From NCBI GenBank assembly GCA_021324685.1, contig JAJPIQ010000005.1:124001-188000 (forward strand): a DNA stretch of 64,000 nucleotides, in the 5' to 3' direction. The notes under the pieces are model-generated. The model was given only the letters and a program-made list of their open reading frames with translations. It ran no database searches and was not told the origin of the DNA. Both the position numbers and the translations under genes were made by a program. This DNA comes from Bacteroidota bacterium. GTDB taxonomy: Bacteria > Bacteroidota > Ignavibacteria > Palsa-1295. Below, one piece after another: positions 22,731 through 42,565 of this stretch; position 1 is the first letter of the stretch, and each line of letters opens with the position of its first letter.

Positions 22731-22760
22731 AAAAAATAAGCCCCTAATTGCTTAGGGGCT
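22731..22760 (-). terminator. Rho-independent terminator of the 22786-27033 gene
   Basis: On the minus strand AGCCCCTAA (22760-22752) and TTAGGGGCT (22747-22739) form a 9-bp stem with a 4-nt loop, followed by TATTTTTTG. It sits between the stop of the large T9SS gene and the start of tal. Confidence 0.9.
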
Positions 22761-22785
22761 TTCATCCTCTACATTTTTTCCCCGA

Positions 22786-25700
22786 TTACTTTTGAACGAC
22801 GAACTCCTGCGAGTGTACGAAACTTCCGTCAGACATCCGGAGCACATATGTCCCGGACGGAAGATTCGAAGTATCGAACGAGATCGAATGTTCTCCGGTC
22901 GCTGCCTGCAGGCCCGAAACGATCGCCCACTGCCGTTTACCAAGACTATTGTATACTTCAATGGTGAGCGTTTCGCCCGAACGCAGCACTTGGAAGTCGA
23001 CCTTTGCCTCGGAACCTGCCGGATTTGGACTGATCTGAACGATATCGAAATTCGGACCGACCCCTGACAGGAAATTACGAATTGTGACATCGCCGCAACG
23101 ATCGAGACCCGCAAATGCACCCGGGATCGTATCGTGTGAAACCCAGCACGCCGGATTGCCCGATTTATCCAGAAATACCGGATTTAGCACGGTAAGCGTC
23201 GAAATCGAATCCTTGTTCAGGACATACTCCATTTGTAAATGGGCAATCGTTCCGACCTGTGTGATCGGCGTGTTGGAGCCGACCGTGATCTTCGTCAGGA
23301 CATAATTCGTATCGGCTGGATCGAAGGTCGTAGTCGGCGGCCCGATGACTTGCAGACCACCCGCCGCCAGGACCGGCGTCGGATTGGGTACGAACATATC
23401 ACGCCGATAGCGGAGGGTGAATTGAATTTGGTAGATCCCCGCATTGGCATCGAGCGTTGTGTTCATTTGGACCGGTACATCGACCGGATCGCCGGGATAT
23501 GCGGTATAAACACCACTGCTACCGGTATTCTGCACACTGAGAGTATTCGTGTAGTGCAGCGGTACACCCGAAAGCGGCTCATCGATAATGGAGATCTCTC
23601 CCGTCAGTGGATTGTAGATCGTGTATGCAATGAACGCGCTCGTTCCACCACCGACCACCGGATTGTAATTGATGGTGAACAGCATCGAGTCATTCGTATG
23701 GAGGGTCGTCGTGTCAGTAAAATTCATGGTTTGCGAGCCATCCGAAAAATGGTATTGCGACGCGCCGGTCGTTCCCATCGTATCGAGAATTTGTGCGCGC
23801 TCGATGACGGCGTCTTTCAAGCCAATGTTCTTTACATGGACATCGGCCGAGCCATTCTGACACACGTACACATTGCCAAAATCATGTCCGGTCGCTGTGA
23901 CCAGGAAGTTCGAAGCGAATGCGACGATGTCCGCATGTCCCGTGTCGGTGCAAGGAACCGGGCCGCTCGCAATGAGCGCAGTTAGCGTCTGGCCAGGCTG
24001 GACGGAGTCCGCAACCGTGACCATTGCACTGTCTCCCGGCAAGATCTGCTGGCCCGGAGTAAAGCCGGAAATGGTGAAGCCACCGCCAATTGAGAGAGAT
24101 GTCAAATCAAGGGTTGTATCCCCATCATTGTGAATCCAGAAATTCGACGTTACATACGCGTTCGGTTCGACCGTATCGAAATTATGTGTCGACGGTGTAA
24201 TGCGAATCGTCGAATGCCGGACCGTGCCCGTCAGCGTAATCGATGGATTGAACGATTTGTCACCCGAAGATCCGTACGCTGTAATAACAGCGTTGCGTGG
24301 ACCGTAGCCTTTCGACAAATTCGGAGCGAATCTCAAGAGTACCCATTTCACATCTCCGCTTCCTAACGCCCATTTCGGAAGATATCCAAATTGATTGGTT
24401 ACCATCGAAAATTCGTCCGCATCGGGACCAGAGATAACGACGCTATCGACCGTCATTGGGCTGCCGGTTCCGCCGGTGCTCGGATTCATAATATAGACCG
24501 TGTCCATGACCGTGTCGCTGCACTCCGTGAAGAATGCCTGCTTAGGCCGGTCCCAGTTGAGGCCTGCCTGCACTCCAAAGCCAAGAAGTTGCGAGGTATC
24601 CTTGATCTGGTGAGCAAACCAGCCAGGAAGATCGGTCCCCCAATGCTGAAGCGTTTGCGCGGCACCGACGTTTTGCGGATGGAAGCAGAACGTAAGCGTT
24701 GTTCTGGCTCCCGGAGCAAGGGTTAGCGGCAATTGGCTCGCGTCAGAGAACGAAAAGTTCGCGTTATCGTCCAACAGCCAATTCTTATTGAGCGTGAGCG
24801 GAGCTTTCCCAACATTTTTAACAGTGAGCGTTTTGCAGGCCGTATCGCCGACCGTCACGTTGCCGAAATCGAGGTCCCCGGCAACAATAAGCGGAGTGAT
24901 CCCAAGTGCTTGAATCGGATACTTGAACTGGGTGCAGCCCGTTTCGAGCGTTACGACCAGCGTATCGAAGGACGTTAACGTATCCTTCGGCGTATAACAT
25001 AACTGGAGTTTAAGCGTGTCACCGGAATGCAGGGTCTCGGAAACCGTCGATGGCGAAAGGGTGAAGGTTCCCATAGTATCGCCCGCCTCGATACTTGCGC
25101 CTGAAATCACAAGATCTCCGGCCTGCTGATTGACCAGCGTTTCGATTTGGCAGGAATCCGACGAAACAACCACCGGTTGGATCGCGATCGGCAGCGGCGG
25201 CGTAAAATCGATCTTGGGTGGATAGTAGTAATATTGATAGACCGTATCGTTACCCGCTTTGTCCGTCGTCCACACTGCCGCGTAGGCGTTCTGTCCAGGA
25301 TTGATAACATTGAGATCGTAATACGCAATGCTGTCTCCCGGCGTAAAGGGGTGCTGGGGATCGAATGAGAACGTGAAATTATACGAGGGAATGGGCCAGC
25401 GCGTATCGAGCGTATCGGTAATCAGAGCGACGTCCGAAATCCGTGTATCTTCGAAACTGAATTGGGGCATATGGCGAAGCTCCATCAGTTCCGCCTGGAA
25501 TCCCCCGCACGTAGAGTCGTGCTTCTCGAGCGGTGGCAGGGTGTCCGGAGAAGGAGTTCCAAGTGCCATTCCAGCCGGATGGCCGTAGCTCTCGTAGGTG
25601 GACCATCCATATAAGTAACAGCCAAAAGGCGCTCCGCATGTCGCAAGATAGGTCGTGCCATTTCCGGGAAGTTGCAGCCGGTAGGCGCTCATGGGAGGGT

Positions 25701-27033: not shown

Positions 27034-27040
27034 AGGAAAT

Positions 27041-27080
27041 GACAGGTCAAAACGAAACTGGGCGGCACATCGCCGCCCAG
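27041..27080 (-). terminator. Rho-independent terminator after the 27138-27950 gene
   Basis: On the minus strand CTGGGCGGC (27080-27072) and GCCGCCCAG (27066-27058) make a perfect 9-bp stem with a 5-nt loop, followed by TTTCGTTTT. It separates the barrel gene from the T9SS gene downstream. Confidence 0.8.
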
Positions 27081-27137
27081 CAAAAAGGATAGTCAAATTC
27101 GGAGGTACGGAGTGGCGAGCCGTACCCCGCCGTGCAA

Positions 27138-27950
27138 TTATCCACGGATGAAATAACGGATCGCAAGACCGGCGAAGAGCGCGGACGCGCGCCAGTTCTC
27201 GGTGTTATCGACTCTCGTGATCGGGAAATCGTAGCCGACGGTTGGCGTCCCGATCCAGTCGTTCGAGAACGATATATCATAGGTCGCCTGCGCGCGGAGC
27301 GCGATGCGAAGGGAGGAGGCCGTGCTAACGGTCGTCGAAGACGTGACTGTCTGCGTTTGCACGCCGCCGCCGACATTCATATCGCCGCTCGAAGCACTGA
27401 CAGTGACCGTCTTATTGAAATTCGCTCCCATTTTAATTCCGACCGACGGACCGACCTGAATTCCAGGGCCGACCGGGCTCGGGCCGGGAGTGAAATTATA
27501 CTTATACTGCAAGTTCACGACAAGGTACGAAAGCGTTGCATCGAGCGCCGTTGTTACGCCCGAATTATTATCGACCACCCCATTCAACTTTGTCGGCGTG
27601 CTGGCGGCAGCACCGCTGAGGTTCGTGAACTTAGAGGATTTCGAATCGTAGATAACTTCACCGACGATGAAGTTCTGGAGTTCGTTCGGATTCCCCATCG
27701 GGAATTCGAGCGATGCTCCACCCCATGGCGCCACACCCGACCCGTTCTGGGCCAGGAAGCAGCTCGGCTCCGAGTTCAGGATCGGAAACGCATCGGAATT
27801 GTACGCGACGAGATTGATACCACCGACCGGACCGGCCAAAAACCCGACCTGGACTTCCGGAGTGAGAACACCGCCCTTTTGGGCCCGTGCATTCCCACCC
27901 ATAGCAAGAATGGCGAAAGCAGAAAGTATAAGCAGAAGACGATTACGCAT
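27138..27950 (-). CDS. Predicted outer-membrane beta-barrel protein
   Basis: A 270-residue protein starting at MRNRLLLILSAFAILAMGG (signal peptide ending ARAQ); an upstream in-frame ATG would add 13 unlikely residues. Strand-rich sequence with VVNLQYKYNFTPG, PGIQVGPSVGIKMGANF and a C-terminal LFAGLAIRYFIRG strand fits an outer-membrane porin-like barrel. The N-terminus LTPEVQVGFLAGPVGGINLV resembles small barrel proteins annotated only as outer membrane protein. It is embedded among the T9SS genes, with a structured-looking leader and its own terminator, so it is probably monocistronic. Function unknown. Confidence 0.68.
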   Translation of the reverse strand: MRNRLLLILSAFAILAMGGNARAQKGGVLTPEVQVGFLAGPVGGINLVAYNSDAFPILNSEPSCFLAQNGSGVAPWGGASLEFPMGNPNELQNFIVGEVIYDSKSSKFTNLSGAAASTPTKLNGVVDNNSGVTTALDATLSYLVVNLQYKYNFTPGPSPVGPGIQVGPSVGIKMGANFNKTVTVSASSGDMNVGGGVQTQTVTSSTTVSTASSLRIALRAQATYDISFSNDWIGTPTVGYDFPITRVDNTENWRASALFAGLAIRYFIRG

Positions 27951-28090
27951 AGTTGTATGTCCAAAAAAAGAAGTTAAACACTTGTTCATGGGATTGCACG
28001 GTCCCGCGCAGGCTGTTTAAGCCGAAGTCCGGCGTTTCCGCCGTCGCAAGCCTTATTTCATCATTTCCCATGAGCCTTAAGTTCCGTTTA
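27951..28090 (-). promoter_or_regulatory. Structured-looking leader upstream of the barrel gene
   Basis: This 140-base stretch on the minus strand can form CGGCG-GAAA-CGCCG (28043-28030), a 5-bp GNRA hairpin, inside a longer AGGCT (28053-28049)/AGCCT (28014-28010) pairing. Upstream of it, GGAACTTAAGG and CATGGGAA (about 28084-28064) match a motif in the leader of the gene starting at 39691. I recognise no named riboswitch. Regulatory function is inferred from structure potential only. Confidence 0.35.
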
Positions 28091-31000
28091 TTAACGTTCT
28101 ATCACAAATTGTTTTGAAACGATGTTTTCGGCGCCCGTCGCAGCATCCACCGTGCTTAAGCGGCAGGTGTAGGTCCCATTCGGGAGCTTCGATACATCGC
28201 AGGTTACCGTACGCTCTCCAGCCGCCTGGGCCACAGCATCCACGGGCCGGGCGACAGCCTTGCCAAGCACATCGTATACACCAAGCGTGACGATCGCCGG
28301 TGCGCGGTTCGCATAATTAATGACGACCGAAGAGCCCGTCACTGGATTTGGCGAGACAGGCCGGATCATGCTGACAACGTTACCCGTCTGCATGTACGTC
28401 CGAAGAATATCGTCCCCGCACACCAGAATCAGCGTGAAATTGCTGTCCTTTTTGAGCGGCACCACGCAGCCGGTCAGAACCCCATTGCTGAAAAGCTGAA
28501 GTGAGGTGAGCGATACGTTGGTCGTGGTATCGGACTTCGTCAGCATTGCATCGAACTTGATATTACCCAGGCTTTGAACGTTCGATGAAAGCTTGGGCCC
28601 GCGAAGAATAAGGACGATGGAATCGCCTTTTGCCGTTACATACGAAGCAGGATCGACGCTCCATCCCGAAGGAAGCCCGCTGAGCGAAGAAGCGATATTG
28701 GTCGGCTTATCGACACTGAGCAGGTCCGGATTGGAAAGCACATACACCAGTTTTACCGATGTAATATCGAGATCGGTATCGCCGATCGGAAGCCCGTTCG
28801 TATTGATCGAAATATTTATCGGCAGCGACAGCGAACTACCGGAGGTCGCCGACGGCGTCGAGAACTGCGACGTCACCAGTGCCGTCGCGATATCCGCGGA
28901 GTTCTGGACCACACTATACGTGCCGACCCTGGCCTGTCCGTTCTTTAAAATAAACTGTACCGAATCGACGTGGACCTGTTTCGATCCCGAATCCGGCATA
29001 AATTGTACGGGAATTTTTATGCTATCGTTACCGGCGACCGATGAACCGATCAGGTTCGGAAGCATGAAGGTCGTGCTGTCCGGACCCATCCATTTCACAT
29101 CGATGACGGTATCGGGCAACGCGAACGTATTCTTCAAAACGACCGTATCGGTCGCAAAACCGCAGGCTAAAACAGGCTGCGCGAGAATGCTTTGCGCGGT
29201 AACCCCGGTCGAGAGGATGACGGCGCTCGAGTAGTAGAGCGTATCGCAGGCGGTCCCCACGAACGCCATATCGATCCACTGTGAATCCACGAAGCTGACC
29301 GATGGGTCGAACGTCACATACACGGTCAGGGAATCACCCTGGTTGAGCGTGACCGGAAGCCCATTGCCCGAGCTTGGCACAACGCTAAACGAACTCGGCG
29401 AACTGCCGTTTTGCTGACCATACACAATATTCGTATAGGTCACGGGCGTGGCATTCGGATTTTTGATCGTAAACGAACGCTTCACCGGGGCCGTCTTATA
29501 CGTCACCGCACCAAAATCGAGCGATGGCGGATTGAACGTCATATTGAGTTCATTCACGACCATGGTCGCGATCACTTTCCCGAGCAGGTTTCCCTCGTTA
29601 TCGAACGCGTAGAGAGTATCGCGGGCTACTTCGTTGATGCCGGTGGGAACCGGAAAATCGACAAAGATCGTGTCGGACCCGCCCGCCTTGGCAAGAATGT
29701 CCGGCTTCGTAACATCCCACACCGAATCGTTCTGGTGCACGGCGGTAGGAGCTGAAAACTGCGTCACGTTCGATGCCTGGATGCCGTTGACCACCTGGGA
29801 AGCCGTACCCGAATTCGCAAGCACGAATGAAAGATGGATGACGTCGCCCGAGGAAGGACAGTTAATAACGTCGTTAACATCCTGGGTGAACGTGACCTGC
29901 GCGGTCACGGGATTGCCATGCAGAGAATCGTTCTTTATGACCGGCGTTACACCATCCGCCTGCAGCACTTGGGGGCTTTCCCAGGACCCCTTCGCCCCGT
30001 CCTGCTCGATGACCGTCGGCTGATAGATAAACCAAACGGAATCGATGCCGTCGGGCGCCGCAGCGCTCGCTTTTTTGGGAACGGTTACCGTGCTCGCCTG
30101 ATAGGGCGCGAGATAAAAGTGCGTCGGATCGGAAACATTATCGAACTTGACGGTCACATCGGTGAGCGCGGAGGTATTATGCACCACGACCGCTTTCTGG
30201 ACCCAGCCGGTATCTTTTTGGAGTGGAACGTCCTTCCAGGTCTGGTCTGTCACATAAAAATCGGGCGCACCGGCATTGCCTTGTACGATCACCGGCAAAA
30301 TAAAACACGGATCGCCGAACTTGATGGTATCGAAAGCCTCCTGGCCGATCACGGGCGAGAATTGGATCTCGACGAGACGCATCGAGTCCGGCGGGATCGG
30401 GCTCAAATCGGGGTTCACCAGGGTAAAGCCCTGGTTCCCTAACGCCAAAGCAAGCTTGGTAATATTGAACGGGGTATCGCTCACGTTCCGAATCGTATCG
30501 TAGAGCGTGGCACTGCCCGGCTTGGGAACGGTTCCGAAATCGCGGACCGGCGGCCCGATCGTGGCGTACTGCGGCTTATAGGTGCTCGTGATCGTCGTCA
30601 GGTTCCCGGCAATATCGTACACAGACACATGCAGATAGGCGGGTTTCGACGGATCGGCGACCGACATGCCATAGCCTCCGGTGTCGATGCCCAGCCCCTC
30701 GACCCAACTCGTATCGAGTTGAAATCCCATGTTGGTAATGCTATCGATCTCGATCTTTCCCAGGCCCGTTTGAAGGTTCCCAGTATCCGAAAGCTCGATA
30801 TACGCATCGTAACACGCGCCGTTCGGAATAGCCGCGGGCGAGACGGTGTCCGTCGGATGGAACGTTCCGGTTCCCAAAAGGCCCGCCCAGGCATAGGACT
30901 CGTCATAGCCGTACCCGTAAATATAGACTCCTACGCCGGCCGAATCGCCGGTAATGATATGCACACCAGGCGAAAGTTGTTTTGGGGGGACGGTATAAAG

Positions 31001-32344
31001 ATCGAAGGTGTCGTCCAAACTCTGTTTGGTGGAATTATATTTTGCGATCGGCTGGCCGTCGACCGTCGTTCGGGCTTCATCGTTCACGTTCACGATCACG
31101 GTCGCATAGTTATCGTAGGGTTGTTGCGAGCCTTTGGCGACCGGTGTTTCGAACACGACGGTTTTCGTATATTGCTCGCGTGGATTGATCACGACTTCCG
31201 CGGGATCGCCCAGGCCATTCTTGTTGTCCGGATAGCTGGAACTATTAATGTATTCGACGAGCATGAACGGCGCATCGCTCCAAAACTTTTGCGCGTTCTG
31301 CAATTCGGACCAATAGGTCCCGTACTTACTCTGGATCTGACAGACCTGGTTGACGCCTTGCGTCGTATTATAGTCCCAAATGGTTTGGTTCGGCTGGGAA
31401 GAAACGAAAAGATAAAGACCTAAATCATGCCCCGGCTGGCCAACCGGTTGGGCGAAATAGGTGCCGTAGTAAGTATTCGCCCACGTCCGCATCGCCGGCA
31501 TCATGTCCTCGACGTGATCGCAATAGGGAAAGTCGATCGGAATATTGGTACACATCGAGCCGCCCAGCACTCCAATAGGGTTACTGGAATGAATGATCGT
31601 TCCCGTTACATCGTAATTGTCGGCACTTTGTGCGAGCACCGAAAGGAATTGTACGCTTTGCCCTCGGTTCAGCGAGACCTGGAATGTTTGTCCCTGTGGA
31701 TAGACGACGACCGTATTGGGACCAGAACCGCGAAGGTCGGTCGCAGGGGTGATCGTAACATTGGTATTATCGGTGCTGGCTACGATCGTAAATTCGGACG
31801 GAAGGTCGTTGCTGCCTTCGAAGAGCGCCTGGAACCCGGCCACAACATAATCGGTCCCCCATCCGATCGTAGGAATGATATACGATCCGTCCGAGGTCTG
31901 GTTATTATGCGACATAAAATAGACCGTCAGGTCCGCATTCGTGGACCAGACATGGACGCCGTTATCCTGGACTTCCCCACTCGATTCCATTTCCCAACCG
32001 GAAAGCGGAACATCGTACGTCGCAATACTCAAGGCCTTCACCGGTAAGGATGCAACCGTTTTCTTTCCCAGCCCGATATTCGCTGTTGTGTTATACGGCG
32101 AAGTAATATATATGCGCATATATTTTCCGCCTAAGTCCTGGCCCCAAAAATTCGAGGGGATAGCGAACCAGAACTCACGGCCCATCGCCGGAGGGGATTG
32201 GTGCAGCTTTGCGATCTGGTGCTGAATACGGGCGTTCTGCGCACGGAGCGTAACCGTCGCGAACATGCAAACGAGCGCAGCGAGTACGCAGAGAGTTTCG
32301 CGAACGCTACCGAAAAAAAATTGCCTTGGACGGGTAAGTCTCAT
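28091..32344 (-). CDS. Giant secreted IgGFc-binding-like/T9SS protein (tandem paralogue A)
   Basis: A protein of 1417 residues. The start at MRLTRPRQFFFGSVRE is chosen because a signal peptide (LCVLAALVCMFATVTLRAQ) follows; the frame extends 48 codons upstream without sense. An N-terminal IgGFc-binding-like domain begins AMGREFWFAIPSNFWGQDLGG and includes VGWGTDYVVAGFQALFEG-type blocks and PYCDHVEDMMPAMRTWANTYY. ASH-type repeats (VRDFGTVPKP, SLDFGAVTYK) and a cohesin-like region follow. The T9SS type A tail runs from VSPNPVTGSSVVINYANR to NGTYTCRLSTVD...SKQFVIER. It is closely related to the genes at 32517 and 35354. A surface-exposed adhesin is the likely role. Confidence 0.85.
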   Translation of the reverse strand: MRLTRPRQFFFGSVRETLCVLAALVCMFATVTLRAQNARIQHQIAKLHQSPPAMGREFWFAIPSNFWGQDLGGKYMRIYITSPYNTTANIGLGKKTVASLPVKALSIATYDVPLSGWEMESSGEVQDNGVHVWSTNADLTVYFMSHNNQTSDGSYIIPTIGWGTDYVVAGFQALFEGSNDLPSEFTIVASTDNTNVTITPATDLRGSGPNTVVVYPQGQTFQVSLNRGQSVQFLSVLAQSADNYDVTGTIIHSSNPIGVLGGSMCTNIPIDFPYCDHVEDMMPAMRTWANTYYGTYFAQPVGQPGHDLGLYLFVSSQPNQTIWDYNTTQGVNQVCQIQSKYGTYWSELQNAQKFWSDAPFMLVEYINSSSYPDNKNGLGDPAEVVINPREQYTKTVVFETPVAKGSQQPYDNYATVIVNVNDEARTTVDGQPIAKYNSTKQSLDDTFDLYTVPPKQLSPGVHIITGDSAGVGVYIYGYGYDESYAWAGLLGTGTFHPTDTVSPAAIPNGACYDAYIELSDTGNLQTGLGKIEIDSITNMGFQLDTSWVEGLGIDTGGYGMSVADPSKPAYLHVSVYDIAGNLTTITSTYKPQYATIGPPVRDFGTVPKPGSATLYDTIRNVSDTPFNITKLALALGNQGFTLVNPDLSPIPPDSMRLVEIQFSPVIGQEAFDTIKFGDPCFILPVIVQGNAGAPDFYVTDQTWKDVPLQKDTGWVQKAVVVHNTSALTDVTVKFDNVSDPTHFYLAPYQASTVTVPKKASAAAPDGIDSVWFIYQPTVIEQDGAKGSWESPQVLQADGVTPVIKNDSLHGNPVTAQVTFTQDVNDVINCPSSGDVIHLSFVLANSGTASQVVNGIQASNVTQFSAPTAVHQNDSVWDVTKPDILAKAGGSDTIFVDFPVPTGINEVARDTLYAFDNEGNLLGKVIATMVVNELNMTFNPPSLDFGAVTYKTAPVKRSFTIKNPNATPVTYTNIVYGQQNGSSPSSFSVVPSSGNGLPVTLNQGDSLTVYVTFDPSVSFVDSQWIDMAFVGTACDTLYYSSAVILSTGVTAQSILAQPVLACGFATDTVVLKNTFALPDTVIDVKWMGPDSTTFMLPNLIGSSVAGNDSIKIPVQFMPDSGSKQVHVDSVQFILKNGQARVGTYSVVQNSADIATALVTSQFSTPSATSGSSLSLPINISINTNGLPIGDTDLDITSVKLVYVLSNPDLLSVDKPTNIASSLSGLPSGWSVDPASYVTAKGDSIVLILRGPKLSSNVQSLGNIKFDAMLTKSDTTTNVSLTSLQLFSNGVLTGCVVPLKKDSNFTLILVCGDDILRTYMQTGNVVSMIRPVSPNPVTGSSVVINYANRAPAIVTLGVYDVLGKAVARPVDAVAQAAGERTVTCDVSKLPNGTYTCRLSTVDAATGAENIVSKQFVIER

Positions 32345-32420
32345 ACGAATAAGACACTCAGCTTTATAAAAACGCACGGGGTACCTCTGGTTACAAATAA
32401 TTTTCGTGAATATTGCAACA

Positions 32421-32446
32421 AAGGACGGATTTTTAAGTCTGAAAGA
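32421..32446 (-). promoter_or_regulatory. Conserved 26-base upstream element (copy 1)
   Basis: On the plus strand this reads AAGGAC, two variable bases, ATTTTTAAG, one variable base, CTGAA, then NGA. It matches 39842-39867 at about 22 of 26 positions. Both copies lie upstream of paralogous T9SS genes (77 and 151 bases before the start codons). A promoter or activator site is possible, or simply shared ancestry from the gene duplication. Confidence 0.4.
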
Positions 32447-32516
32447 AAACAGCCCCGCTAAGCAAAAGCAATCCCGGAAATTCGTCAAAATAACCGTTTA
32501 CTCGCCAAATCGCCCG

Positions 32517-35231
32517 TCAGCGCAGGACCTCAAATTCCTTGGAAACAAGACGGTTTTCATCAGCGCCCAAAACCTGCACACGATAGGTGTACGTCCCAGG
32601 CGGAAGGCCGGAAATCTCACAGGTGATCGTCCATGAGCCGGGCGCTCGCCAGGCATCTGAAACCGGCCGCAGAACCTCTCGGCCAAGTGCGTCGAAAATC
32701 TGAAGCGTGACTCGACATTCCTCGGAATTCGAGTACTCGAATGTTGCCTCCGGACCGAAAACAAGATCGGACACAATAGAAAAATGGAAGGACTTTTGAC
32801 CCAAAACCTCCATATTGGTGCTGGCGGCAATGCCTCTCAGCGTATCGGTTCGAAGTAAAGGGGTGATCCCGTCCGAAGCGAGAACTTGAGGGCTGTGCCA
32901 GTATGCAACAGCGGTTTTTGCAAGGGAATCCGTCGGTTCATAAATAAACCATATTGAATCGAGACCCGAACCTGGCTGGCCGGTTCGATTCGGAACCGTT
33001 AGGGTACTTGCTTGAAACGGTGCAAGCCCAAAATGCACCGGGTCTGAAACCGAATCGAAAAGAACATGGATTGCTTCCGTGTTCGACAAATTATGAATCA
33101 GCACCGGCTTCGCGATCCATCCCGTATCTTTCGTTAGCGGCACAGGAAGCCACGCCTGATTGTCCACATAAAAATCACGAGCAGCATTCGCAATGAGCGT
33201 TGCCTCGACGATCCGGCATTCATCGCCGAACAGGATCGTGTCGGACACGGCGAACACTGACGTGTCCTGGAATTTTATTTTTATGAGCGCTTTCTGACCG
33301 GGCGGGATCGGAGAGGCAGGAACGCTATCGAGCGTGAAGCCGACATCTCCTTTTACCAGCTTGAGCGTTTGGAATGCGAACGCCGATGCGGTCGGATTGA
33401 CCAGCGTGTCGTAAACAACTCGAACGGTATCTGCAGGAACGTTCCCAACGTCCTGAACGGCCGGCACGACGGTATCGAGGTCGGGCTCATACGTACTCAC
33501 GATCGTTGTGCGATTGCCCGCCAAATCAAAAACATCGACCGAAAGATATCCGGGGTTCGATCCGTCGATCACAGATACATTATAACCGCTGGTGTCAAAG
33601 CCAACTCCTTCTATCCAATTGCTATCCAGTTGGAATGTCATATTGTATTGAGAGTCGACGCGAATGAACGAGAGATGACTTTGCGGACCATTCGCACTGC
33701 CGGAATCGGAAAGATGAACATGCGAACTGAAACACGTACTCGTAATCTGAGCAACAGGACCGACGGTGTCGGGCGACTGATACGTCGCAATACCTAACGG
33801 CCCGGACCACGCATACGACTCATCAAATCCGTAGCCATATCCATAAATACCTACTCCGAGAGAATCGCCTTGTATGGGATGAGCGCCGGGTTGAATTTTT
33901 GGAACCAGAAAAATCTCGAACGTATCATCGATGGGCTGATGAGTATATGAGAGAATATTCTTGCCGTCGAATGTGGTATAAGGCTCATCCTTGACGTTGA
34001 CTATAATATTCAGATAGTTATCATAGGGTTGTTGTGAGCCTTTTGCTATAGGAGTTTCAAAAATAGGATCACGTGAAAATTGCTCCCGTGAAGGGACAAC
34101 GACTTCTGCCGGATCGCCATTGGCGTTGTGATTATCGGGGTAGCTTGAGCTATTTATATACTCCACCAGCATGAACGGGGCGTCGCTCCAAAATTTTTGA
34201 GCATTCTGAAGTTCGTCCCAGTATATTCCGTACTGGCTGGGAATCACGCACTCCTGGTGAGTTCCAATTGCCGTACTGAATCCCCAGATGGTCTGGTTCG
34301 GTTTTGATGACACAAATAAATACATTCCAGAATTGTGACCGGCCGTTCCGGCAGGCTGGGCAAAATTGGTGGCATAGTACGTTTGCCCCCATATGCGCAG
34401 GGGCGGCAGCATGTGCTCAACATGATCGCAATAGGGAAAGTCAATCGGAATATTGGTACACATCGATCCACCAATGACACCGATCGGATTGCTTGAATGA
34501 ATCACCGTTCCAGTGACATCCATATCGCTGGAACTTTGCGCCTGCACAGACATAAATTGCACAGACTGGCCGCGATTAAGTGTGAGTCGAAACGTTTGAC
34601 CCGCAGCATGGGCCGTCGCGGATGCATTGGTGGTGGACCGAAGGTCGGTCGAAGGAGTAATATCGACGTTGGTATTGTCCATACCGGAAGCGATTGTGAA
34701 CTCCGAAGGCAAGTCGCTACTACCTTCGAAAAGTGCTTGAAATCCCGCAATAACGTAATCCGTACCGCATCCAATCGTTGGAATGATATAGGTTCCATCG
34801 GAGGTTTCGCTGTTGTGCGACATGAAATAAACCGTCAGCTCTGCACCGGTGGACCAGACATGGACACCCCTATTTTCGACATCCCCACTCGTTTCCATTT
34901 CCCAGCCGTTAAGCGGAATTTGATAGGTGGAGACAGCATATGCCTTCACAGGAATGGAATCGACTTCGTTCGTGCCCAACCCGATATGCGCCACCGTGTT
35001 CCGTTGCGAGGTAATACTAATCTGTAGATACTTCCCTCCCAGGTCCTGCCCCCAGAAATTGGAAGGGATCGCAAACCAGAAATCCCGGCCCATCGTGGGT
35101 GGCGCATGCTTCTGGGACGTAATTTGGCTCGTAATGCCAATGCTTTGGGAGCGGCCTGGTTGTATGAAGAAACTCGCGCTCAGCACAACTATTCCGAGCG
35201 CGCCAAGAGGGAATCGCGACCTGTCACTCAT
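32517..35231 (-). CDS. Secreted IgGFc-binding-like/T9SS protein, internally shortened (tandem paralogue B)
   Basis: A protein of 904 residues with a signal peptide (FPLGALGIVVLSASFFIQPG). Residues about 45-500 match its neighbours block by block (TMGRDFWFAIPSNFWGQDLGG, IPTIGCGTDYVIAGFQALFEG, PYCDHVEHMLPPLRIWGQTYY). After SPQVLASDGITPLLRTDTLRG the sequence jumps directly to a C-terminal sorting-like domain (VTLQIFDALGREVLRPVS, PPGTYTYRVQVLG, VSKEFEVLR). About 500 residues of ASH and cohesin-like sequence present in paralogues A and C are missing. The usual P-N-P entry to the T9SS domain is also absent (reads FGPEATFEYSN), so export competence is uncertain. The frame is intact, so it may be a functional short form. 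Confidence 0.82.
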   Translation of the reverse strand: MSDRSRFPLGALGIVVLSASFFIQPGRSQSIGITSQITSQKHAPPTMGRDFWFAIPSNFWGQDLGGKYLQISITSQRNTVAHIGLGTNEVDSIPVKAYAVSTYQIPLNGWEMETSGDVENRGVHVWSTGAELTVYFMSHNSETSDGTYIIPTIGCGTDYVIAGFQALFEGSSDLPSEFTIASGMDNTNVDITPSTDLRSTTNASATAHAAGQTFRLTLNRGQSVQFMSVQAQSSSDMDVTGTVIHSSNPIGVIGGSMCTNIPIDFPYCDHVEHMLPPLRIWGQTYYATNFAQPAGTAGHNSGMYLFVSSKPNQTIWGFSTAIGTHQECVIPSQYGIYWDELQNAQKFWSDAPFMLVEYINSSSYPDNHNANGDPAEVVVPSREQFSRDPIFETPIAKGSQQPYDNYLNIIVNVKDEPYTTFDGKNILSYTHQPIDDTFEIFLVPKIQPGAHPIQGDSLGVGIYGYGYGFDESYAWSGPLGIATYQSPDTVGPVAQITSTCFSSHVHLSDSGSANGPQSHLSFIRVDSQYNMTFQLDSNWIEGVGFDTSGYNVSVIDGSNPGYLSVDVFDLAGNRTTIVSTYEPDLDTVVPAVQDVGNVPADTVRVVYDTLVNPTASAFAFQTLKLVKGDVGFTLDSVPASPIPPGQKALIKIKFQDTSVFAVSDTILFGDECRIVEATLIANAARDFYVDNQAWLPVPLTKDTGWIAKPVLIHNLSNTEAIHVLFDSVSDPVHFGLAPFQASTLTVPNRTGQPGSGLDSIWFIYEPTDSLAKTAVAYWHSPQVLASDGITPLLRTDTLRGIAASTNMEVLGQKSFHFSIVSDLVFGPEATFEYSNSEECRVTLQIFDALGREVLRPVSDAWRAPGSWTITCEISGLPPGTYTYRVQVLGADENRLVSKEFEVLR

Positions 35232-35293
35232 AGAATTTGAAATTGATTATATTAAAAACCTCCACAACCCAGTATCGTTACACCGCCATATCG

Positions 35294-35334
35294 AAAAAAA
35301 CGAAGTGCTAACCGTATGAACGGTTAGCACTTCG
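35294..35334 (-). terminator. Strong rho-independent terminator after paralogue C
   Basis: CGAAGTGCTAACCGT and ACGGTTAGCACTTCG (35301-35315 and 35320-35334) form a perfect 15-bp stem with a 4-nt loop. On the minus strand it is followed by T7 (35300-35294). It lies 19 bases after the stop of the gene at 35354-39691. Confidence 0.93.
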
Positions 35335-35353
35335 TTTACTCAGACCGGTTAGT

Positions 35354-38300
35354 TCATCGCCGGACCACGAACTGTTTCGAGATGACAACGGGGCCCATTG
35401 CATTTTGGGCACTCAGGCGATACGTGTATGTACCACTCGTGAGCTTCGAAACGTCGCAGGCGACCTGCCATGCACCCGCATCGTGGTGCAGATTATTGAC
35501 CGGCCGCGCGACCTCATTACCGAGTTCATCATAGACGGAGATCGTGATATCCGTAGCACCACGGTTCGCATAGTAGAACGTTACTGCATTGCCAGTAACC
35601 GGGTCCGGCGTGGCGGGCTTGATGAAATCCACGAGCGTGCCCTGGTTGTCCATGACGAGTCGCATCGTCGAATCGCCGCAACGCAAAACGAGCGAGAAGT
35701 CCTGGCTATTGACGCTCGGAATGATGCACGGTCCTACTGGCGCACCGTTGCTAAAGAGCTGCATCGAGTTCAGCGTTACAGGTGTCTCCTCTGCCGATTT
35801 ATCGAGCATGACCTGGAAGCCAAGCTGACCGAAGGAACTGATCGTGTTATCGATCGGCACCGCACCCGCACCCGTTCCGTCCAGCGTGACGACAATGGTG
35901 TCACCCGCGTTATTCGACTGCACAGTGGGAACCCACCCCGTCGGCTGGCCCGAGAATTGGCCGACATTGAGCAGATCGGGATTCGGAATGACGTAGGTCA
36001 GGATGACTTTGTTGATCCCAAGTTGCGGAATCGGAATCGCAAGTCCATTTGTATTGACCGTAAATGCCGCCGGGAGTGCCATCTGGTCGTTGGCTGCCCC
36101 ATTTTGTCCTTCGCCGGGATTCGTCACGTTCTTCATAACTGAAGTGGCCGTAACTCCGACCGAACCGGCAATACCGGTGACGGGCTGAACGATCGTATCG
36201 AACATTCCCCGAGAATTTAGTAGCACGAACTGCACAGAATCCGTATAAGTCACCAGGCCCGGCTGAGGCGTCGCCCTGAATGTTACGGGAACCGGCAACT
36301 GGTTCGGCGATGGGAACGTCGAACTCCCATTCAGCACGGTTCCAACGATCGAATTGGGAACCGAAAAGTTCGTCCCCGCACCAAGCCACTGAATGCTCTC
36401 GATCGTATCGGAAAGATTTGCATCTACCGAGGGATCATTGGGGTTTCTCGGCTTGAAGTTAAGCAGCGTGATCGTATCGACCTGATTGTCGCAGGAAAGG
36501 ATCGGCGCCGGCGTGTATCCGGTCGAGGCGACGCCGGGAACTGTAACATACGCCGAAAGCCTGATTTCCGTATCATGACACGCGTTCGTTACTACATAGA
36601 TCTGAGCCTCCTGGAGGGTATCGAAACTTGTCGAAGGATCGAAGACAACGGTGATCTGCATGGTTTTACCTGGTCCAAGGATCGTCCCGATGGAGGTAAG
36701 GTTCAGGGGGGGCCATTCGGTCAGTGTAAAAGCATTATTATAGGTTCCTCCCGGTGCGAGATTTACCGTATCGATTAATAAGCTCTCCGATGTCGGATTT
36801 GTGATCGTAAACACTGCGGTGTCTATCGCTGAGGGCTTGCTTTGATACATCACCGGGCCGAACGTGAGTTGCGCCGGCGCAACTTGATCCGTCCGATAAT
36901 TGACATGCACGATCACACGGACCGAAAGTGAATCCCCTTCGATCGTCTTTGTCGTAAGGATATCGGTATCGTCCTCATTGATCCCAATTGGCGGGAAATA
37001 ATCGACGGTGACATTCATCGTCTGTCCGAGCAGGGTCTGCACGCTCCCCAGATCGAGCGTGTCACCATTTTCCAGAACCCCCGTGAGGTTAAGGAATTTC
37101 GTCGGGTTCGTTTGCCGGATCGGATTGAACGTGCTCTTCTGCGTTCCTAATGCCGACAGCTGGAACGTAATGGGAATCATATCGCCCGGCTTTGCACAAT
37201 CGATCGTAATTTCGGTATCGTCACGGAATGCTTGCTGCGGAGCAATTCCCCATCCGATCAGGCGGTCGGTGCGAGCCGTTTCCGTCCCATTGATGTTGCT
37301 TTGCCAATTGCCGATCGTGGTGTCCGGTTTATTCACGGAGTTTACATCGGGGAAATAAGCGACCGCAAATTTCGCCGTGCCCTGTTTGCCGTTCAGGACG
37401 GAAGCGGGAACGTTAAGCGGGAATGATTGTGCCGGCTTGAAGTGGATAGTATCCGCCCACCAGGCTTTATCGATAGCAATCGGAATATTCGAAAGATTAT
37501 GAACATGGACCGAGTCCACATATCCGTTCGGAGGCACACCGTTGATCGGTTCATTCGGCCATGTCTGGTCTTCGACCAGGAAGTCGGCCGCCCCGCCGTT
37601 ACCGGTAAGCGCAACCGAAAGCGTCCGGCAAGCATCTTCGAGTAACAGGGAATCGATCACGGTAGAAGATTTTACGGCTACGAACTTTATCTTGACCAAT
37701 TCTTTCTTTCCTACTGGAATAGGGGAAGCTGGCAGACTGTCGATCGAAAAACCAAGGCCGGCATCCTGCAATACGATATTAGAGACCGGCATTGGCGCCT
37801 GTCCTGTGTTTACGATCGTATCGTAGGCATAGAGCGCCGTGCCGGAAACAGAAGTACCGAGATTCGTCAGAGGCGGCACTAATGTATCGACCTGAGGGAG
37901 ATAGGTACTGATGATCGTCGTTTGATTGCCAGCCTCATCGTATGCTTCGACACTCAAATATGCTGGTTTTGTGGGATCGAGCACAAACATGCTATATCCC
38001 CCCGTGTCGAGTGCAGCGCCTTCGATCCAGTCCGGGTTCAGAAGATACGCCATATTATAATCAGAGTCGAGCCGGATTTCTGAAAGCCGACTTTGTGAAT
38101 CGCCGCTGGGGAGCAAACCGGAATCCGATATATGAATCGTAGCATTATAACAGATGCCCATCGTATCTACCCGCGGTGAGATCGTGTCCGGCGAGTGAAA
38201 CGTACCGGTCCCGAACGAACCGGTCCACGCGTACGATTCATCGTTCCCATAGCCATAGATATACACACCGACGCCCAGCGAATCTCCGGTCACGACATGT

Positions 38301-39691
38301 GCGCCGGGCGCAATATGCGGTACACAGAAGACATCGAAGGTATCATCGACCATTTGATGGGTGTACGATAATATTTTTATTTTATCGAAGGTCGTATTCA
38401 GTTCATCCTTCACATTCACAATAATCGTCGCATAGTTATCGTACGGCGATTGCGAACCGACGCTTACGGGTGTTTGGAAGACAACGGTCTGGGTGTACTG
38501 CTCGCGGGGATTAACCACCACTTCCGCTGGATCCCCGGGAATTGGAACATGTAAACCTGCTTCGTCCGGATAGGACGCACTGTTGATATACTCGACCAAT
38601 AAAAATGGGGCGTCGCTCCACATTTTTTGAGCCGACTCTAATTCATCCCAATAAACTCCATATTTATTATCGATAATACACTCGACATGATCTCCGGTTA
38701 TCGCATCATGCCGAAAAATCTTTTGGCCTGGCTTCGAAGAAATTATCAGATACAACGAAACATCGTGCAGGGGATAGCCCGGCGGCGCAATAAAATTCGT
38801 GGTATAGTAGGTCTGGGCCCACGCACGCACCGGCGGCATCATATCTTCGACATGGTCGCAATATGGATAATCTGCAGGAATGTTTGGACACGATGATCCG
38901 CCGATCACACCTACCGGATAGTTCGAATGGACAACGGACCCTGAAACATCGTAGTCGTCGGCATTTTGCGCAAGGACGCTCTCATATTGCACGCATTGCC
39001 CTCGATTCAGCGAGACCTGAAATGGAATTCCTCTTTGATAGGCAACGGAATTTTGTCCGGCCGGCCATGCGGCCGATTGGCGAAGGTCTGTCGAAGGAGT
39101 GATCGTAACGACCGTATTGTCGACGTTTGCTGTAATCGTAAACTCGGAAGGGACGTCGAACACGTACGCGCCGAATCCCTCGAACAACGCCCCATAGCCA
39201 GCAACAACGTAATCGGTACCCCAGCCGACGGTAGGAACGATATACTCACCGTCGGACGTCGCTGCATTATGTGACATCACATAAACGGTAAGATCGGCAT
39301 CGTTCGACCAAACGTGGACCGACGTATTCTCGACCACGCCGCTCGAATTCAACTCGTACGTTTTCGGCATTGCGAACGTACCAATAGTATAGGCTTTGAC
39401 AGCCACCGGTGTTACTGAACCTTGTCCCAATAATTGAACGTAGGCGGTCGTATTTTTGGGCGACGTGATATAAACGCGCAAATATTTTCCGCCGAGATCC
39501 TGGTCGTTATAATTTGCCGGCTGCGCCCACCAGAACTCTCGCCCCATAGCGGGCGGATGCTCTGTTTGTTTTATGATCTTATGATGAATGCGCGGCTGTT
39601 GAGCCAGGATGGAGCCGTAAGCGACTACCATCATACCCACCAGGAGGGTTAGCACACGGCTGACAGTTCGCACAGAATGAAAACGATTCAT
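35354..39691 (-). CDS. Giant secreted IgGFc-binding-like/T9SS protein (tandem paralogue C)
   Basis: A protein of 1445 residues with a signal peptide (VLTLLVGMMVVAYGSILAQQ). The IgGFc-binding-like domain starts AMGREFWWAQPANYNDQDLGG and includes VGWGTDYVVAGYGALFEG, PYCDHVEDMMPPVRAWAQTYY and DAPFLLVEYINSASYPDEAG. Several beta-sandwich ASH-like modules follow (for example APAQLTFGPVMYQSKPSAID), then a cohesin-like domain (LPAAFTVNTNGLAIPIPQLG). The T9SS tail runs from ATPDPVTGNAVTFYYANR to SGTYTYRLSAQNAMG...ISKQFVVRR. P-D-P replaces the common P-N-P. It is the first and probably ancestral-length member of the tandem trio. It has a 320-base leader and a strong terminator. Confidence 0.86.
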   Translation of the reverse strand: MNRFHSVRTVSRVLTLLVGMMVVAYGSILAQQPRIHHKIIKQTEHPPAMGREFWWAQPANYNDQDLGGKYLRVYITSPKNTTAYVQLLGQGSVTPVAVKAYTIGTFAMPKTYELNSSGVVENTSVHVWSNDADLTVYVMSHNAATSDGEYIVPTVGWGTDYVVAGYGALFEGFGAYVFDVPSEFTITANVDNTVVTITPSTDLRQSAAWPAGQNSVAYQRGIPFQVSLNRGQCVQYESVLAQNADDYDVSGSVVHSNYPVGVIGGSSCPNIPADYPYCDHVEDMMPPVRAWAQTYYTTNFIAPPGYPLHDVSLYLIISSKPGQKIFRHDAITGDHVECIIDNKYGVYWDELESAQKMWSDAPFLLVEYINSASYPDEAGLHVPIPGDPAEVVVNPREQYTQTVVFQTPVSVGSQSPYDNYATIIVNVKDELNTTFDKIKILSYTHQMVDDTFDVFCVPHIAPGAHVVTGDSLGVGVYIYGYGNDESYAWTGSFGTGTFHSPDTISPRVDTMGICYNATIHISDSGLLPSGDSQSRLSEIRLDSDYNMAYLLNPDWIEGAALDTGGYSMFVLDPTKPAYLSVEAYDEAGNQTTIISTYLPQVDTLVPPLTNLGTSVSGTALYAYDTIVNTGQAPMPVSNIVLQDAGLGFSIDSLPASPIPVGKKELVKIKFVAVKSSTVIDSLLLEDACRTLSVALTGNGGAADFLVEDQTWPNEPINGVPPNGYVDSVHVHNLSNIPIAIDKAWWADTIHFKPAQSFPLNVPASVLNGKQGTAKFAVAYFPDVNSVNKPDTTIGNWQSNINGTETARTDRLIGWGIAPQQAFRDDTEITIDCAKPGDMIPITFQLSALGTQKSTFNPIRQTNPTKFLNLTGVLENGDTLDLGSVQTLLGQTMNVTVDYFPPIGINEDDTDILTTKTIEGDSLSVRVIVHVNYRTDQVAPAQLTFGPVMYQSKPSAIDTAVFTITNPTSESLLIDTVNLAPGGTYNNAFTLTEWPPLNLTSIGTILGPGKTMQITVVFDPSTSFDTLQEAQIYVVTNACHDTEIRLSAYVTVPGVASTGYTPAPILSCDNQVDTITLLNFKPRNPNDPSVDANLSDTIESIQWLGAGTNFSVPNSIVGTVLNGSSTFPSPNQLPVPVTFRATPQPGLVTYTDSVQFVLLNSRGMFDTIVQPVTGIAGSVGVTATSVMKNVTNPGEGQNGAANDQMALPAAFTVNTNGLAIPIPQLGINKVILTYVIPNPDLLNVGQFSGQPTGWVPTVQSNNAGDTIVVTLDGTGAGAVPIDNTISSFGQLGFQVMLDKSAEETPVTLNSMQLFSNGAPVGPCIIPSVNSQDFSLVLRCGDSTMRLVMDNQGTLVDFIKPATPDPVTGNAVTFYYANRGATDITISVYDELGNEVARPVNNLHHDAGAWQVACDVSKLTSGTYTYRLSAQNAMGPVVISKQFVVRR

Positions 39692-40012
39692 GGTCTTTTG
39701 TCCAATTATTTGAAAGCGGTAAGCAGTAAATAAATTTACCTCGAGAACAGAGATTGTTCTCTACATAGACAGCGAAGCAGAAAGGAGGACCCTCTTAAAA
39801 TCTCTTCCCATGGGTCCTAAAGTTCCTTTTTTGCCTAAAGGAAGGACACATTTTTAAGCCTGAACGATTCAAAGAAGGATGCTTAAATAGTAAAACGCGG
39901 GATCCCGGTCGGGTTACAAAAAATATTACGAATAAAAATCCAGACGTTCCTCCATATAGAACAAGAGGCGAGTAATGATACTCGCCCCTTGATTTTCGTC
40001 TAAAAAAGACAA
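39692..40012 (-). promoter_or_regulatory. Leader/intergenic region upstream of paralogue C
   Basis: A 321-base gap with no gene. It holds the second copy of the 26-base element (39842-39867); a block at about 39804-39825 similar to one upstream of the barrel gene at 27950 (TTCCCATG followed by an AAGTTCC end); a 7-bp stem AGGACCC/GGGTCCT (39786-39792 and 39812-39818); and a 7-bp stem GAGAACA/TGTTCTC (39743-39749 and 39755-39761). Together these suggest a regulated 5' leader. No known riboswitch recognised. Confidence 0.4.
39967..39986 (-). terminator. Hairpin after the PD40/OmpA gene
   Basis: GGCGAGTA and TACTCGCC form a perfect 8-bp stem with a 4-nt loop (ATGA on the plus strand), about 25 bases after the stop at 40013. 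The tract that follows on the minus strand is only moderately T-rich, so termination strength is uncertain. Confidence 0.5.
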
Positions 40013-42565
40013 TTAGGGTGTCGCTGTGATCGGTGTCTCGACTAACACCTGAACCGTACGATTGTAATAGCGACCCTCCGGAAGATCGTTCGGGTAGAGC
40101 GGCTGAGTCTTGCCATAACCGTGCGAGGTCAGCGAACTCACATGACCCTTGATATGGCCGGCAATATCCGATTTAACCGCATTCGCGCGATTGGTCGAAA
40201 GCCTGGCATTATATTCTTCGGTCCCTAAAATATCGGTGTAACCGTTCACCGTCACATCCGAATTCGGTTGGATACGGCCGTAAACATACGTATCCAGAAT
40301 CTTATGATTCCATTTCCCCATGTCGGACTTATTATACGTGAACAGGATGAGATTATAGGTCTCGAGTGTCTTACCCGTCGTGTGCGAAGCGACCATATTA
40401 CTGATCGAGAATTGCTTGACATCGACGTTATCAACGTTCGAAAGCACTTCGCGCCCATTATTATCGGTGACCTTTAGCTGAACAGCCATTTTATCTTCGC
40501 CCGATGGCAATTGATTTCCCTGCGAAGAACGCCAGTTGTAGCCACTATAGGTGGTTGTGCTGAGCGGGTCCGTGATCGGGATCGTTGCCCATGGCTTGCC
40601 CTGGTAACTAATAACAAGTTCACGACTCTTGATCACCTGATCCCGAAGTCCGTTCTCAAATGTGAACCCAGCGGTTGGCGCGTCGGGACGCTTTACCGTC
40701 GTCTTATACAGCACGGGATGAATGATCTCCCACGAATCTGTCGTAAGCTCGACGCGACGGTTTTCGGCAATGCCTTCGGGAGTGGTAGGAAGCGTCGGAT
40801 TTTCCGGAAGCTTGCGCGCATCGACTTTAATTCGCTCCGGTTGGATGCCCCAGATTTCGACAAGATATTTTTTAACGCTCTCGGCACGCTGACGCGAAAG
40901 GTCGATCGACATTTCGACGCTGGTGTCCTGGGAGTTTGTGCCCGTTAGCGTGATCGACGTCGAAGGATTATTCCTCATGCGCAGCCCGATGATATTCAAA
41001 TAGTTGTAGTACGAATTGAGCGTACTGCTTAGAGTATCTTCCGAAAAACCGTTCGTTTGCTGAGGGCTTGTGTACAACACATAGCGGGATGGGAGCGCAC
41101 TGGAGCCGGCATCGAAGAAAAGCATAGGAAGCAGCGCAAACAGGTCGATCGTCTGCTGCTCGCGAATGATGACGCCTTTGAAATTCGGAAATAGAGCCGG
41201 TTTTTCCGTCACAAGTTGCGGCGTTTCCGTTACCCAATGCACGATCGGAGGCTTTTCGTTATTCATCGGAATATCGTGCGTCCAGATACGCGAGGTATCG
41301 TTGCGCAACGGGATTTCGTCCTTCGTAGGCGGATAGGGGAAGTGATCGCCTTCCGTCGCACTGATGATATAGGGTCCCCCTAAGTTACCCTGAGCATCGC
41401 TTGAAAGCACGGCAAGATATTCGCCCGTCGCACTGTTCGTTATTTTATTATAGACCGTATCGCCTGTACGCGCATCGGTAATCACGACGTGCGCGGCAAG
41501 ATTTGCCTGAGTGTTTACATCGAACGCACGGCCCTTGAGTACGAGCGTCGGTTTTGGAGCCGGCGGGTTCGTAGCAACATAAAGATCGTACCCTCCCTGG
41601 CCTCCATCGCGATTGCTCGTGAAGAACAATACGTTACCCGAAGCCGGGATCGTAAGGAAGAAATCGTCAGCCGTGGAATTGATGGGCGGTGGAAGAGCTA
41701 CAGGGTCGGTCCAGTCGGTATCGCTTGGCCCTTTCCACTCGGACTGAAATATATCATATCCTCCCATACTGCCATGACCTTCAGAGGCGAAATACAGCGT
41801 CGTTCCGTCGGCGGCCATGAATGGAGATCCGTCGAAAAGCGGAGTATTGATCTTCGAGCCGAGATTTACCGGATCGCTCCATCGTCCATCGGGAAGCTGA
41901 TGACTTACAAAAATATCGACGTTCTTTTTACTTTCGTCGCCGATCTTACCGGGGCGGTTCGAAGCAAAAAATAACTTTTTTCCATCGGGCGATATCGCCG
42001 GCTGCGACTCCCAAAGCGAAGTATTGATCGGTGCACCGACCTCATGGACGTTCTTCCAGTGCGTACCGTCAAGCGTTGCAACCCAGATATTGACATCGTT
42101 CGGCGCGCTCGTATTTCGGCTCGATGCGAAATAGATCGTTTGACCGTCGGCGGCAATTGACGCTGCACCATCGTCGGCATCGGAATTAATTTCTTCTACA
42201 TTGAGCGGAGACCCCCACACCGTGTCATTGCCTTCAGAACTTGTTGTCATCCAGAAGTCCTGCCGGCGGCTCGGCTTACGGTCGGAAACGAAAAACATGG
42301 TACGACCGTCGGCGGTGATGGTCGGGGAAAAGTCCTGGTCCGAGGAATTCACGAGTGGTCCTAAATTCTTGACCACGAGTTTTGCAAAGGGATTTTTAAT
42401 AGCGCTATCCGGCGTCACCGAAGGTTTTGGCATTACCGAATCGATCGGAGGGGCAATCTTAAAAAAGCTAGCCGCAGAAGATCGGCCGGGGCTTTCCATC
42501 GATGCGCCAAAAAACAAAAGAAGCGAAAAAACGAGGATTCGATGGGTACTGAGATGGAGCTTCAT
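40013..42565 (-). CDS. Outer-membrane OmpA-family protein with PD40 propeller repeats
   Basis: An 850-residue protein with a signal peptide (HRILVFSLLLFFGASMESPG). Residues about 65-330 hold five PD40/WD40-like repeats, each with a D-G-x-x-x-(F/Y)F(A/V)S core (ITADGRTMFFVSDR, IAADGQTIYFASSR, ISPDGKKLFFASNR, MAADGTTLYFASEG, and a degenerate fifth, IPASGNVLFFTSNR). A carboxypeptidase-regulatory-like domain follows (VLKGRAFDVNTQ). There are then two OmpA-like stretches: RQRAESVKKYLVEIWGIQPERI near 535-556, and DVTVNGYTDILGTEEYNARLS near 770-790 ending in RTVQVLVET. The order PD40, beta domain, OmpA resembles the T9SS accessory protein PorE. That it anchors the T9SS machine to peptidoglycan is an inference. 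Confidence 0.83.
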   Translation of the reverse strand: MKLHLSTHRILVFSLLLFFGASMESPGRSSAASFFKIAPPIDSVMPKPSVTPDSAIKNPFAKLVVKNLGPLVNSSDQDFSPTITADGRTMFFVSDRKPSRRQDFWMTTSSEGNDTVWGSPLNVEEINSDADDGAASIAADGQTIYFASSRNTSAPNDVNIWVATLDGTHWKNVHEVGAPINTSLWESQPAISPDGKKLFFASNRPGKIGDESKKNVDIFVSHQLPDGRWSDPVNLGSKINTPLFDGSPFMAADGTTLYFASEGHGSMGGYDIFQSEWKGPSDTDWTDPVALPPPINSTADDFFLTIPASGNVLFFTSNRDGGQGGYDLYVATNPPAPKPTLVLKGRAFDVNTQANLAAHVVITDARTGDTVYNKITNSATGEYLAVLSSDAQGNLGGPYIISATEGDHFPYPPTKDEIPLRNDTSRIWTHDIPMNNEKPPIVHWVTETPQLVTEKPALFPNFKGVIIREQQTIDLFALLPMLFFDAGSSALPSRYVLYTSPQQTNGFSEDTLSSTLNSYYNYLNIIGLRMRNNPSTSITLTGTNSQDTSVEMSIDLSRQRAESVKKYLVEIWGIQPERIKVDARKLPENPTLPTTPEGIAENRRVELTTDSWEIIHPVLYKTTVKRPDAPTAGFTFENGLRDQVIKSRELVISYQGKPWATIPITDPLSTTTYSGYNWRSSQGNQLPSGEDKMAVQLKVTDNNGREVLSNVDNVDVKQFSISNMVASHTTGKTLETYNLILFTYNKSDMGKWNHKILDTYVYGRIQPNSDVTVNGYTDILGTEEYNARLSTNRANAVKSDIAGHIKGHVSSLTSHGYGKTQPLYPNDLPEGRYYNRTVQVLVETPITATP

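Follow-up and report, generated by a model that had tools for sequence, protein, structure and literature searches.

A conserved locus for IgGFc-headed T9SS surface proteins, an outer-membrane barrel and a PD40/OmpA protein: a candidate cell-wall-tethered adhesin module

Described adhesin systems and the locus compared with them

In well-studied Bacteroidota, type B adhesins have PorP/SprF barrels of their own, and some of them are tied to the cell wall via PorE-like proteins. Type A cargo of the studied species uses PorV and PorU and needs no dedicated barrel. PorE, PorP and PG1035 of P. gingivalis associate in a complex (PMC9143113), and F. johnsoniae possesses five operons composed of genes for a PorE-like protein, a type B adhesin and an SprF-like shuttle (PMC12618676).

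We analyzed a stretch of 64,000 nucleotides (hereafter the window) located on contig C15 of a genome of 3.47 Mb that is 98% complete (G000, hereafter the host genome). The locus at 22786-42565, on the minus strand, presents in this gene order a PD40/OmpA gene, three genes for IgGFc-headed proteins (H4, H3, H2), a barrel gene (BAR) and a fourth head gene (H1), followed by genes for a transaldolase and PGI. The transaldolase gene (21555..22688, minus strand; PF00923, 281 bits) has the same position in relatives and constitutes the conserved right-hand neighbour, outside the module. The conserved left-hand neighbour is a divergently oriented gene (43363..47586, plus strand) for a 1407-aa ASH-repeat protein (Pfam ASH/HYDIN Ig), which also stands beside the PD40/OmpA gene in five relatives (G001, G002, G004, G005, G006). 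Residues 1-950 of this protein are without any Pfam match. A Sortilin/BNR propeller protein with a T9SS tail is encoded at 47934-50198 of the window.

As in the F. johnsoniae operons (e.g., Fjoh_3952-3951-3950), a giant T9SS surface protein, a barrel and a PD40/CRD/OmpA protein are encoded together, and peptidoglycan-binding residues are common to the PD40/OmpA protein of the window and the F. johnsoniae and P. gingivalis systems. The corresponding parts of P. gingivalis (PorE, PorP, PG1035) are bound together. The window locus differs from both systems in several features: the tails are type A-like and not type B, the barrel is of the OMP_b-brl_2 type without detectable PorP/SprF homology, the PorE-like protein has two OmpA-like domains and lacks TPR and lipobox, the gene order is different, and the head genes are multiplied. 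A Bacteroidales locus (L048, Paludibacteraceae) encodes an IgGFc head with a type B tail, then a PD40/OmpA protein, then a PorP/SprF barrel (179.8 bits). Both loci combine genes for an IgGFc head, a PD40/OmpA protein and a barrel, but the tail in L048 is CHU_C (type B) and its barrel is a true PorP/SprF. L048 therefore indicates that the IgGFc head does occur on the known type B / PorE-like / PorP-SprF layout.

With moderate confidence, we propose that the locus encodes a T9SS adhesin module tethered to the cell wall, a variant of the PorE/PorP/type B arrangement in which parts have been replaced. By analogy, it would work like the PorE/PorP/type B system, of which we do not class it as a member. 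The giant head proteins would exit the cell via SprA and carry their IgGFc-type heads outermost, on Ig/ASH stalks. BAR, in the outer membrane, would hold the adhesin tail or its base, and the PD40/OmpA protein, below BAR in the periplasm, would clamp it to peptidoglycan via its OmpA domain. Such a physical complex, anchored through BAR, would adhere to a ligand. With type A-like tails and another barrel, the lineage thus seems to arrive at the known arrangement, so that carrier selection becomes a testable question.

Heads, stalks and tails of the four surface proteins

The preliminary description of this DNA had recognized IgGFc-binding-like heads, and all four indeed match PF17517 over its full length (E 9e-44 to 4e-49, 150-168 bits for a cut-off of 25.6), the Pfam search covering profile positions 1-297 or nearly. 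H4 (35354..39691, minus strand; 1445 aa) has its head at about 38162-39598 (150.3 bits) and its T9SS tail at about 35402-35608. H3 (32517..35231, minus strand; 904 aa) presents a short stalk and a head at about 33762-35147 (155.5 bits). H2 corresponds to a 1465-aa ORF (28091..32488, minus strand) with a head at about 30824-32236 (167.8 bits) and a T9SS tail; the ORF as listed starts too far upstream, and the actual start is probably about 32344. H1 (22786..27096, minus strand) has a head at about 25522-26934 (150.1 bits), a choice-of-anchor D domain at about 24658-24882 and a T9SS tail. Its start is probably at 27033, downstream of the listed TTG-extended start, because a terminator-like hairpin (27081-27057) falls inside the TTG-extended ORF. 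The three tandem paralogues previously noticed are H2, H3 and H4 (28091-39691), whose heads are 58-67% identical among themselves. The head of H1 is more distant from them (28% identity) and forms a separate clade in the head tree.

The structure of a 587-residue piece of H3, comprising the head and an Ig domain, was predicted from 77 alignment rows. The model is almost all beta (mean pLDDT 90.2, pTM 0.87); in it, a head of about 460 residues precedes an Ig-like domain of about 110 residues. Foldseek of the head model against the PDB gave poor matches only, to Ig-like and other beta proteins (TM <=0.16 by query length), and the head profile found in the PDB a best E of 0.29. The head, as confidently modelled, is an all-beta structure without a solved counterpart. 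Near-invariant residues of the head alignment include DNT...I.P and GDP motifs. The GDP motif, whose Asp and Pro are nearly invariant, occupies head residues 344-346 in the modelled piece and recalls, probably by chance, the GDPH motif, which is the cleavage motif in VWD domains of FCGBP. Among viral models (BFVD), the best match of the head model was Q6XLX4, FirrV-1-C4 of the algal virus Feldmannia irregularis virus a (probability 1.00, TM 0.38/0.42), and this protein may share the fold of the IgGFc head.

The family owes its name to human FCGBP, the N-terminal 450 residues of which have been termed the Fc-binding domain (PMC9354016). PF17517 is common to this N-terminal domain and the H1-H4 heads, but the heads described here are bacterial, stand on T9SS stalks and have no VWD repeats. 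That they truly bind IgG Fc or animal mucus appears highly improbable: the closest named relatives of the locus, such as palsa_1295 and Chersky.7_45, are metagenome bins, none with an animal source by title, and Geobacter, Gallionella, Planctomycetota and others possess related heads, so that the name reflects one animal member only. Widespread among bacteria and without a solved structure, this head family bears the name of an animal mucus protein, which is misleading. Among the papers searched, we found none linking IgGFc-binding with type IX secretion; the confident head model and the conserved genetic setting together give a first functional context for the family.

T9SS tails had been assigned to all four proteins. 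Those of H1 and H2 exceed the cut-offs of both Pfam PF18962 and NCBIfam TIGR04183 (38.0 and 30.2 bits, respectively, with the latter). The tails of H4 and H3 stay below and are recognized mainly by homology: H4 narrowly misses the cut-offs (25.0 of 27 bits with Por_Secre_tail, and 17.1 of 23 bits), and H3 is weak (15.6 bits), its last 80 residues nevertheless aligning with the other H tails. The supposed ASH/cohesin-like stalk was retained in part, as choice-of-anchor D is clear in H1 (93.3 bits) and weak in H2 and H4, while a cohesin-like component is unsupported (best E 0.08, in H1 only). The T9SS core, the absence of which would have refuted the preliminary description, is present in the genome with SprA (546 bits), PorV (293 bits) and PorU (677 bits), and the PorV family has four members over cut-off. 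The type A tail model has about 150 matches in the host genome, and the type B tail model TIGR04131 had no match there in a profile search with few positive controls. CHU_C (type B) reaches only E 0.01-0.05 on H3 and H4.

These data would also be compatible with head proteins that are ordinary type A substrates of the T9SS: PorV would carry them, PorU would cut them, and they would then be attached to lipopolysaccharide or released. BAR and the PD40/OmpA protein would in this case be conserved neighbours that serve envelope integrity and take no direct part in display. We consider this explanation, the main rival of the tethered module, possible, though on the unlikely side. In its favour are the type A-like tails of H1 and H2, which exceed the cut-offs, the presence of PorU and of four PorV-family proteins, and the profile searches of the genome, in which neither the type B tail nor PorP/SprF was found.

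The barrel and the PD40/OmpA protein

The barrel protein reported beside the heads is real. BAR (27138..27989, minus strand; probable start 27950) is a 283-aa outer-membrane barrel of the OMP_b-brl_2 type (PF13568, 29.7 bits over a cut-off of 27), and its orthologue occupies the equivalent place in relatives. For PorP/SprF (TIGR03519/PF11751), there was no NCBIfam match on BAR at E up to 1, the same PorP model giving 179.8 bits on L048, and hhalign of BAR against PorP/SprF returned a probability of 0.6%. Also, profile searches found no PorP/SprF in the host genome or in 13 family genomes, with few positive controls, the PorP model being positive on L048. The AlphaFold model of BAR, built from four alignment rows only, was too poor (pLDDT 29) to show its fold.

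In the SprB-SprF gliding adhesin system, too, a barrel gene is linked to that of a giant T9SS adhesin. SprF has a Cys-X-Cys motif in its periplasmic C-tail, with a disulfide link to GldK (PMC12635249). In contrast, the C terminus of BAR (...LAIRYFIRG) is without cysteine and therefore without this motif, so that the GldK disulfide link cannot form in the same way, and there is no evidence of motility. BAR might serve type A-like T9SS adhesins as their dedicated carrier or anchor and be unrelated to both PorV and PorP/SprF. It would then represent a third T9SS shuttle class, lineage-wide where PorP/SprF and type B tails appear missing, a suggestion that we make tentatively and regard as rather doubtful.

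The gene at 40013..42565 (minus strand) encodes an 850-aa protein with a PD40 beta-propeller, a CRD-like domain and two OmpA-like domains (Pfam PD40 119.6 bits, OmpA 73.3 bits), a putative PorE-like cell-wall anchor. It had been called PorE-like from the outset. The propeller (four PD40 matches) and OmpA are real, but the PorE model NF052230 gives 178.6 bits against a cut-off of 600, Pfam finds no N-terminal TPR, and the signal region MKLHLSTHRILVFSLLLFFGASMESPG contains no cysteine, hence no lipobox for a lipoprotein signal. In the C-terminal (second) OmpA domain, the peptidoglycan-binding motif GxTD...LSxxRA is conserved, with its Asp and Arg aligned with those of 3td3 and 5u1h; in OmpA-family structures, these positions belong to the peptidoglycan-binding site. 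The best NCBIfam model for the whole protein is CHU_0125 (187.7 bits, far below cut-off). This model is named outer membrane integrity protein, which speaks for type A substrates that merely have envelope-integrity genes as neighbours.

Transcription signals have the same tendency. Four terminator-like hairpins were detected on the minus strand, in the H4-H3 gap (35298..35337; an 18-pair stem with a T tail, the strongest of 28 pattern matches), in the PD40/OmpA-H4 gap (39962..39991, 13 pairs), in the BAR-H1 gap (27057..27081, 11 pairs) and after H1 (22738..22761, 10 pairs). The number of pattern matches is slightly above chance (28 observed vs 21 +/- 4.4 in shuffles); these four have the longest stems among them, and all lie in gaps. 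As they split the locus, it is probably not one operon, and the signals suggest that PD40/OmpA, H4, H3-H2-BAR and H1 are separate transcription units. The parting of the PD40/OmpA, H4 and H1 transcripts is a further point for independent, PorV-carried substrates. The Bacteroidota promoter pattern was not found in the locus gaps, except for one half-site upstream of the PD40/OmpA gene.

Gene order, fusions and recombination among relatives

The order kept in the family is ASH protein, PD40/OmpA, head(s), BAR, optional H1, transaldolase and PGI. PD40/OmpA, long head and BAR are found on one contig in six genomes (G000, G002, G003, G004, G005, G007), and three others, whose contigs are broken there, are compatible with this order (G001, G006, G008). 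Between PD40/OmpA and BAR there is one long head in G002, G003, G004, G005 and G007, three in the host genome, and more than one in G001, G006 and G008. The locus includes H1 in G000, G001, G002, G005 and G006, and lacks it in G003, G004, G007 and G008. The ancestral family unit would probably have held a single gene each for PD40/OmpA, a long head protein and a barrel, and the extra heads would have arisen by tandem duplication in the window species and some relatives. Outside the family, in regions that are a sample among the matches listed and not a census, the full PD40/OmpA - long head - BAR order occurs in G015, G034 and G052 (family f4; loci L123, L179, L184), and a head with BAR, without a PD40/OmpA gene within the examined stretch, in G043 (f4; locus L173), G046 and G055 (f14; loci L153, L156). 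The examined regions around shorter heads outside the family have no such neighbours, except L154 and L158.

Fusion proteins of 675-722 aa combine an N-terminal BAR homologue with the double OmpA part of the PD40/OmpA protein. They are encoded in the host genome (L129 6169-8202, L130 4278-6443, L139 2828-4852) and in G008 (L133 3572-5626), and such a fusion of barrel paralogues to the OmpA part suggests a physical complex. These fusions argue against a mere neighbourhood of type A substrates and envelope genes, as do the three-gene order, which, with changing flanks, is kept across the family and found again in another family of the class, and the distribution of the heads: long heads adjoin the barrel, whereas nearly all of the examined shorter heads outside the family are without one. 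The dedicated surface-display module that had been proposed is thus supported by the gene order in two families and by the fusions, with the restriction that heads occur genome-wide, most of them without such neighbours. In L129, the fusion gene immediately follows a TamB-family gene and precedes that for a 1937-aa ASH/cohesin protein.

Within the genus, identity is 75-79% for the PD40/OmpA protein, 72-76% for BAR, 80-82% for the transaldolase, 57-75% for the heads and 38-58% for the stalks, the heads being the best-conserved part of the adhesins. The PD40/OmpA protein and BAR thus come close to the transaldolase in conservation. The counterparts of H2 and H3 in G006 are named H2' and H3' (L015 1953-9410). 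In the head trees, H2 is paired with H3 (100/99) and H2' with H3' (93/93), an H2/H2' pair being rejected (p-AU 0.0009), while the Ig domain and first stalk stretch pair H2 with H2' (100/99) and reject both H2/H3 (p 0.008) and H2'/H3' (p 1e-7); the clades for these tests were named with the first tree already known, which makes these p-values somewhat optimistic. Orthology of H3 and H3' is supported neither by the heads nor by the stalk pieces. The simplest reading of these trees would be that gene conversion or unequal exchange homogenizes the heads within the array and that the stalks are vertically inherited. In the tethered adhesin module, recombination would keep neighbouring heads alike while the stalks diverge and vary in length. 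Homogenized heads carried by diverging stalks are an argument for a ligand that stays constant and is reached at varied distances, and against antigenic variation. We rejected antigenic variation of the heads, as these are conserved and homogenized.

Heads that are the best-conserved adhesin part and are homogenized between tandem copies could also belong to a coat or matrix scaffold, in which they would bind each other or a self-made polymer to build a surface layer or biofilm matrix, with the varied stalks as spacers in one lattice. The approximately 17 copies in one genome agree with such a scaffold, and the family namesake FCGBP is a structural mucus protein (PMC9354016). Nevertheless, self-binding is without direct evidence and the heads at other loci of the genome are only distantly related, and we judge this explanation improbable compared with a tethered adhesin.

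PF17517 has 18 matches in the host genome, corresponding to about 17 genes, most of which have no BAR or PD40/OmpA neighbours. It has 9-26 matches in each of 12 other family genomes and none in about two thirds of the sampled class-level relatives. The heads thus rank among the major surface-protein families of this lineage. The term island, used in the preliminary description, is misleading, as this is a conserved syntenic locus adjoining the transaldolase and PGI genes, and about 13 more IgGFc genes lie elsewhere in the genome. With about 17 IgGFc genes here and 9-26 in family relatives, it is one locus of a lineage-wide expansion and not a mobile island. The mobile-island reading was rejected, as GC shows no sharp change and the flanks are conserved.

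In the host genome, three more IgGFc-headed genes form another array (L134, C10:89764-97071), whose heads are distantly related and which has no adjoining barrel. Two IgGFc genes look broken (L135, G000 C54:4956-6014; L147, C30:11938-12419), one frame having an internal TAG and one head being split over two frames. Also, the genus possesses a headless version of the module (L131 813-7751, L126 1008-7820), in which PD40/OmpA and BAR are accompanied by a T9SS-tailed protein of 1,316-1,346 aa with no other known domain.
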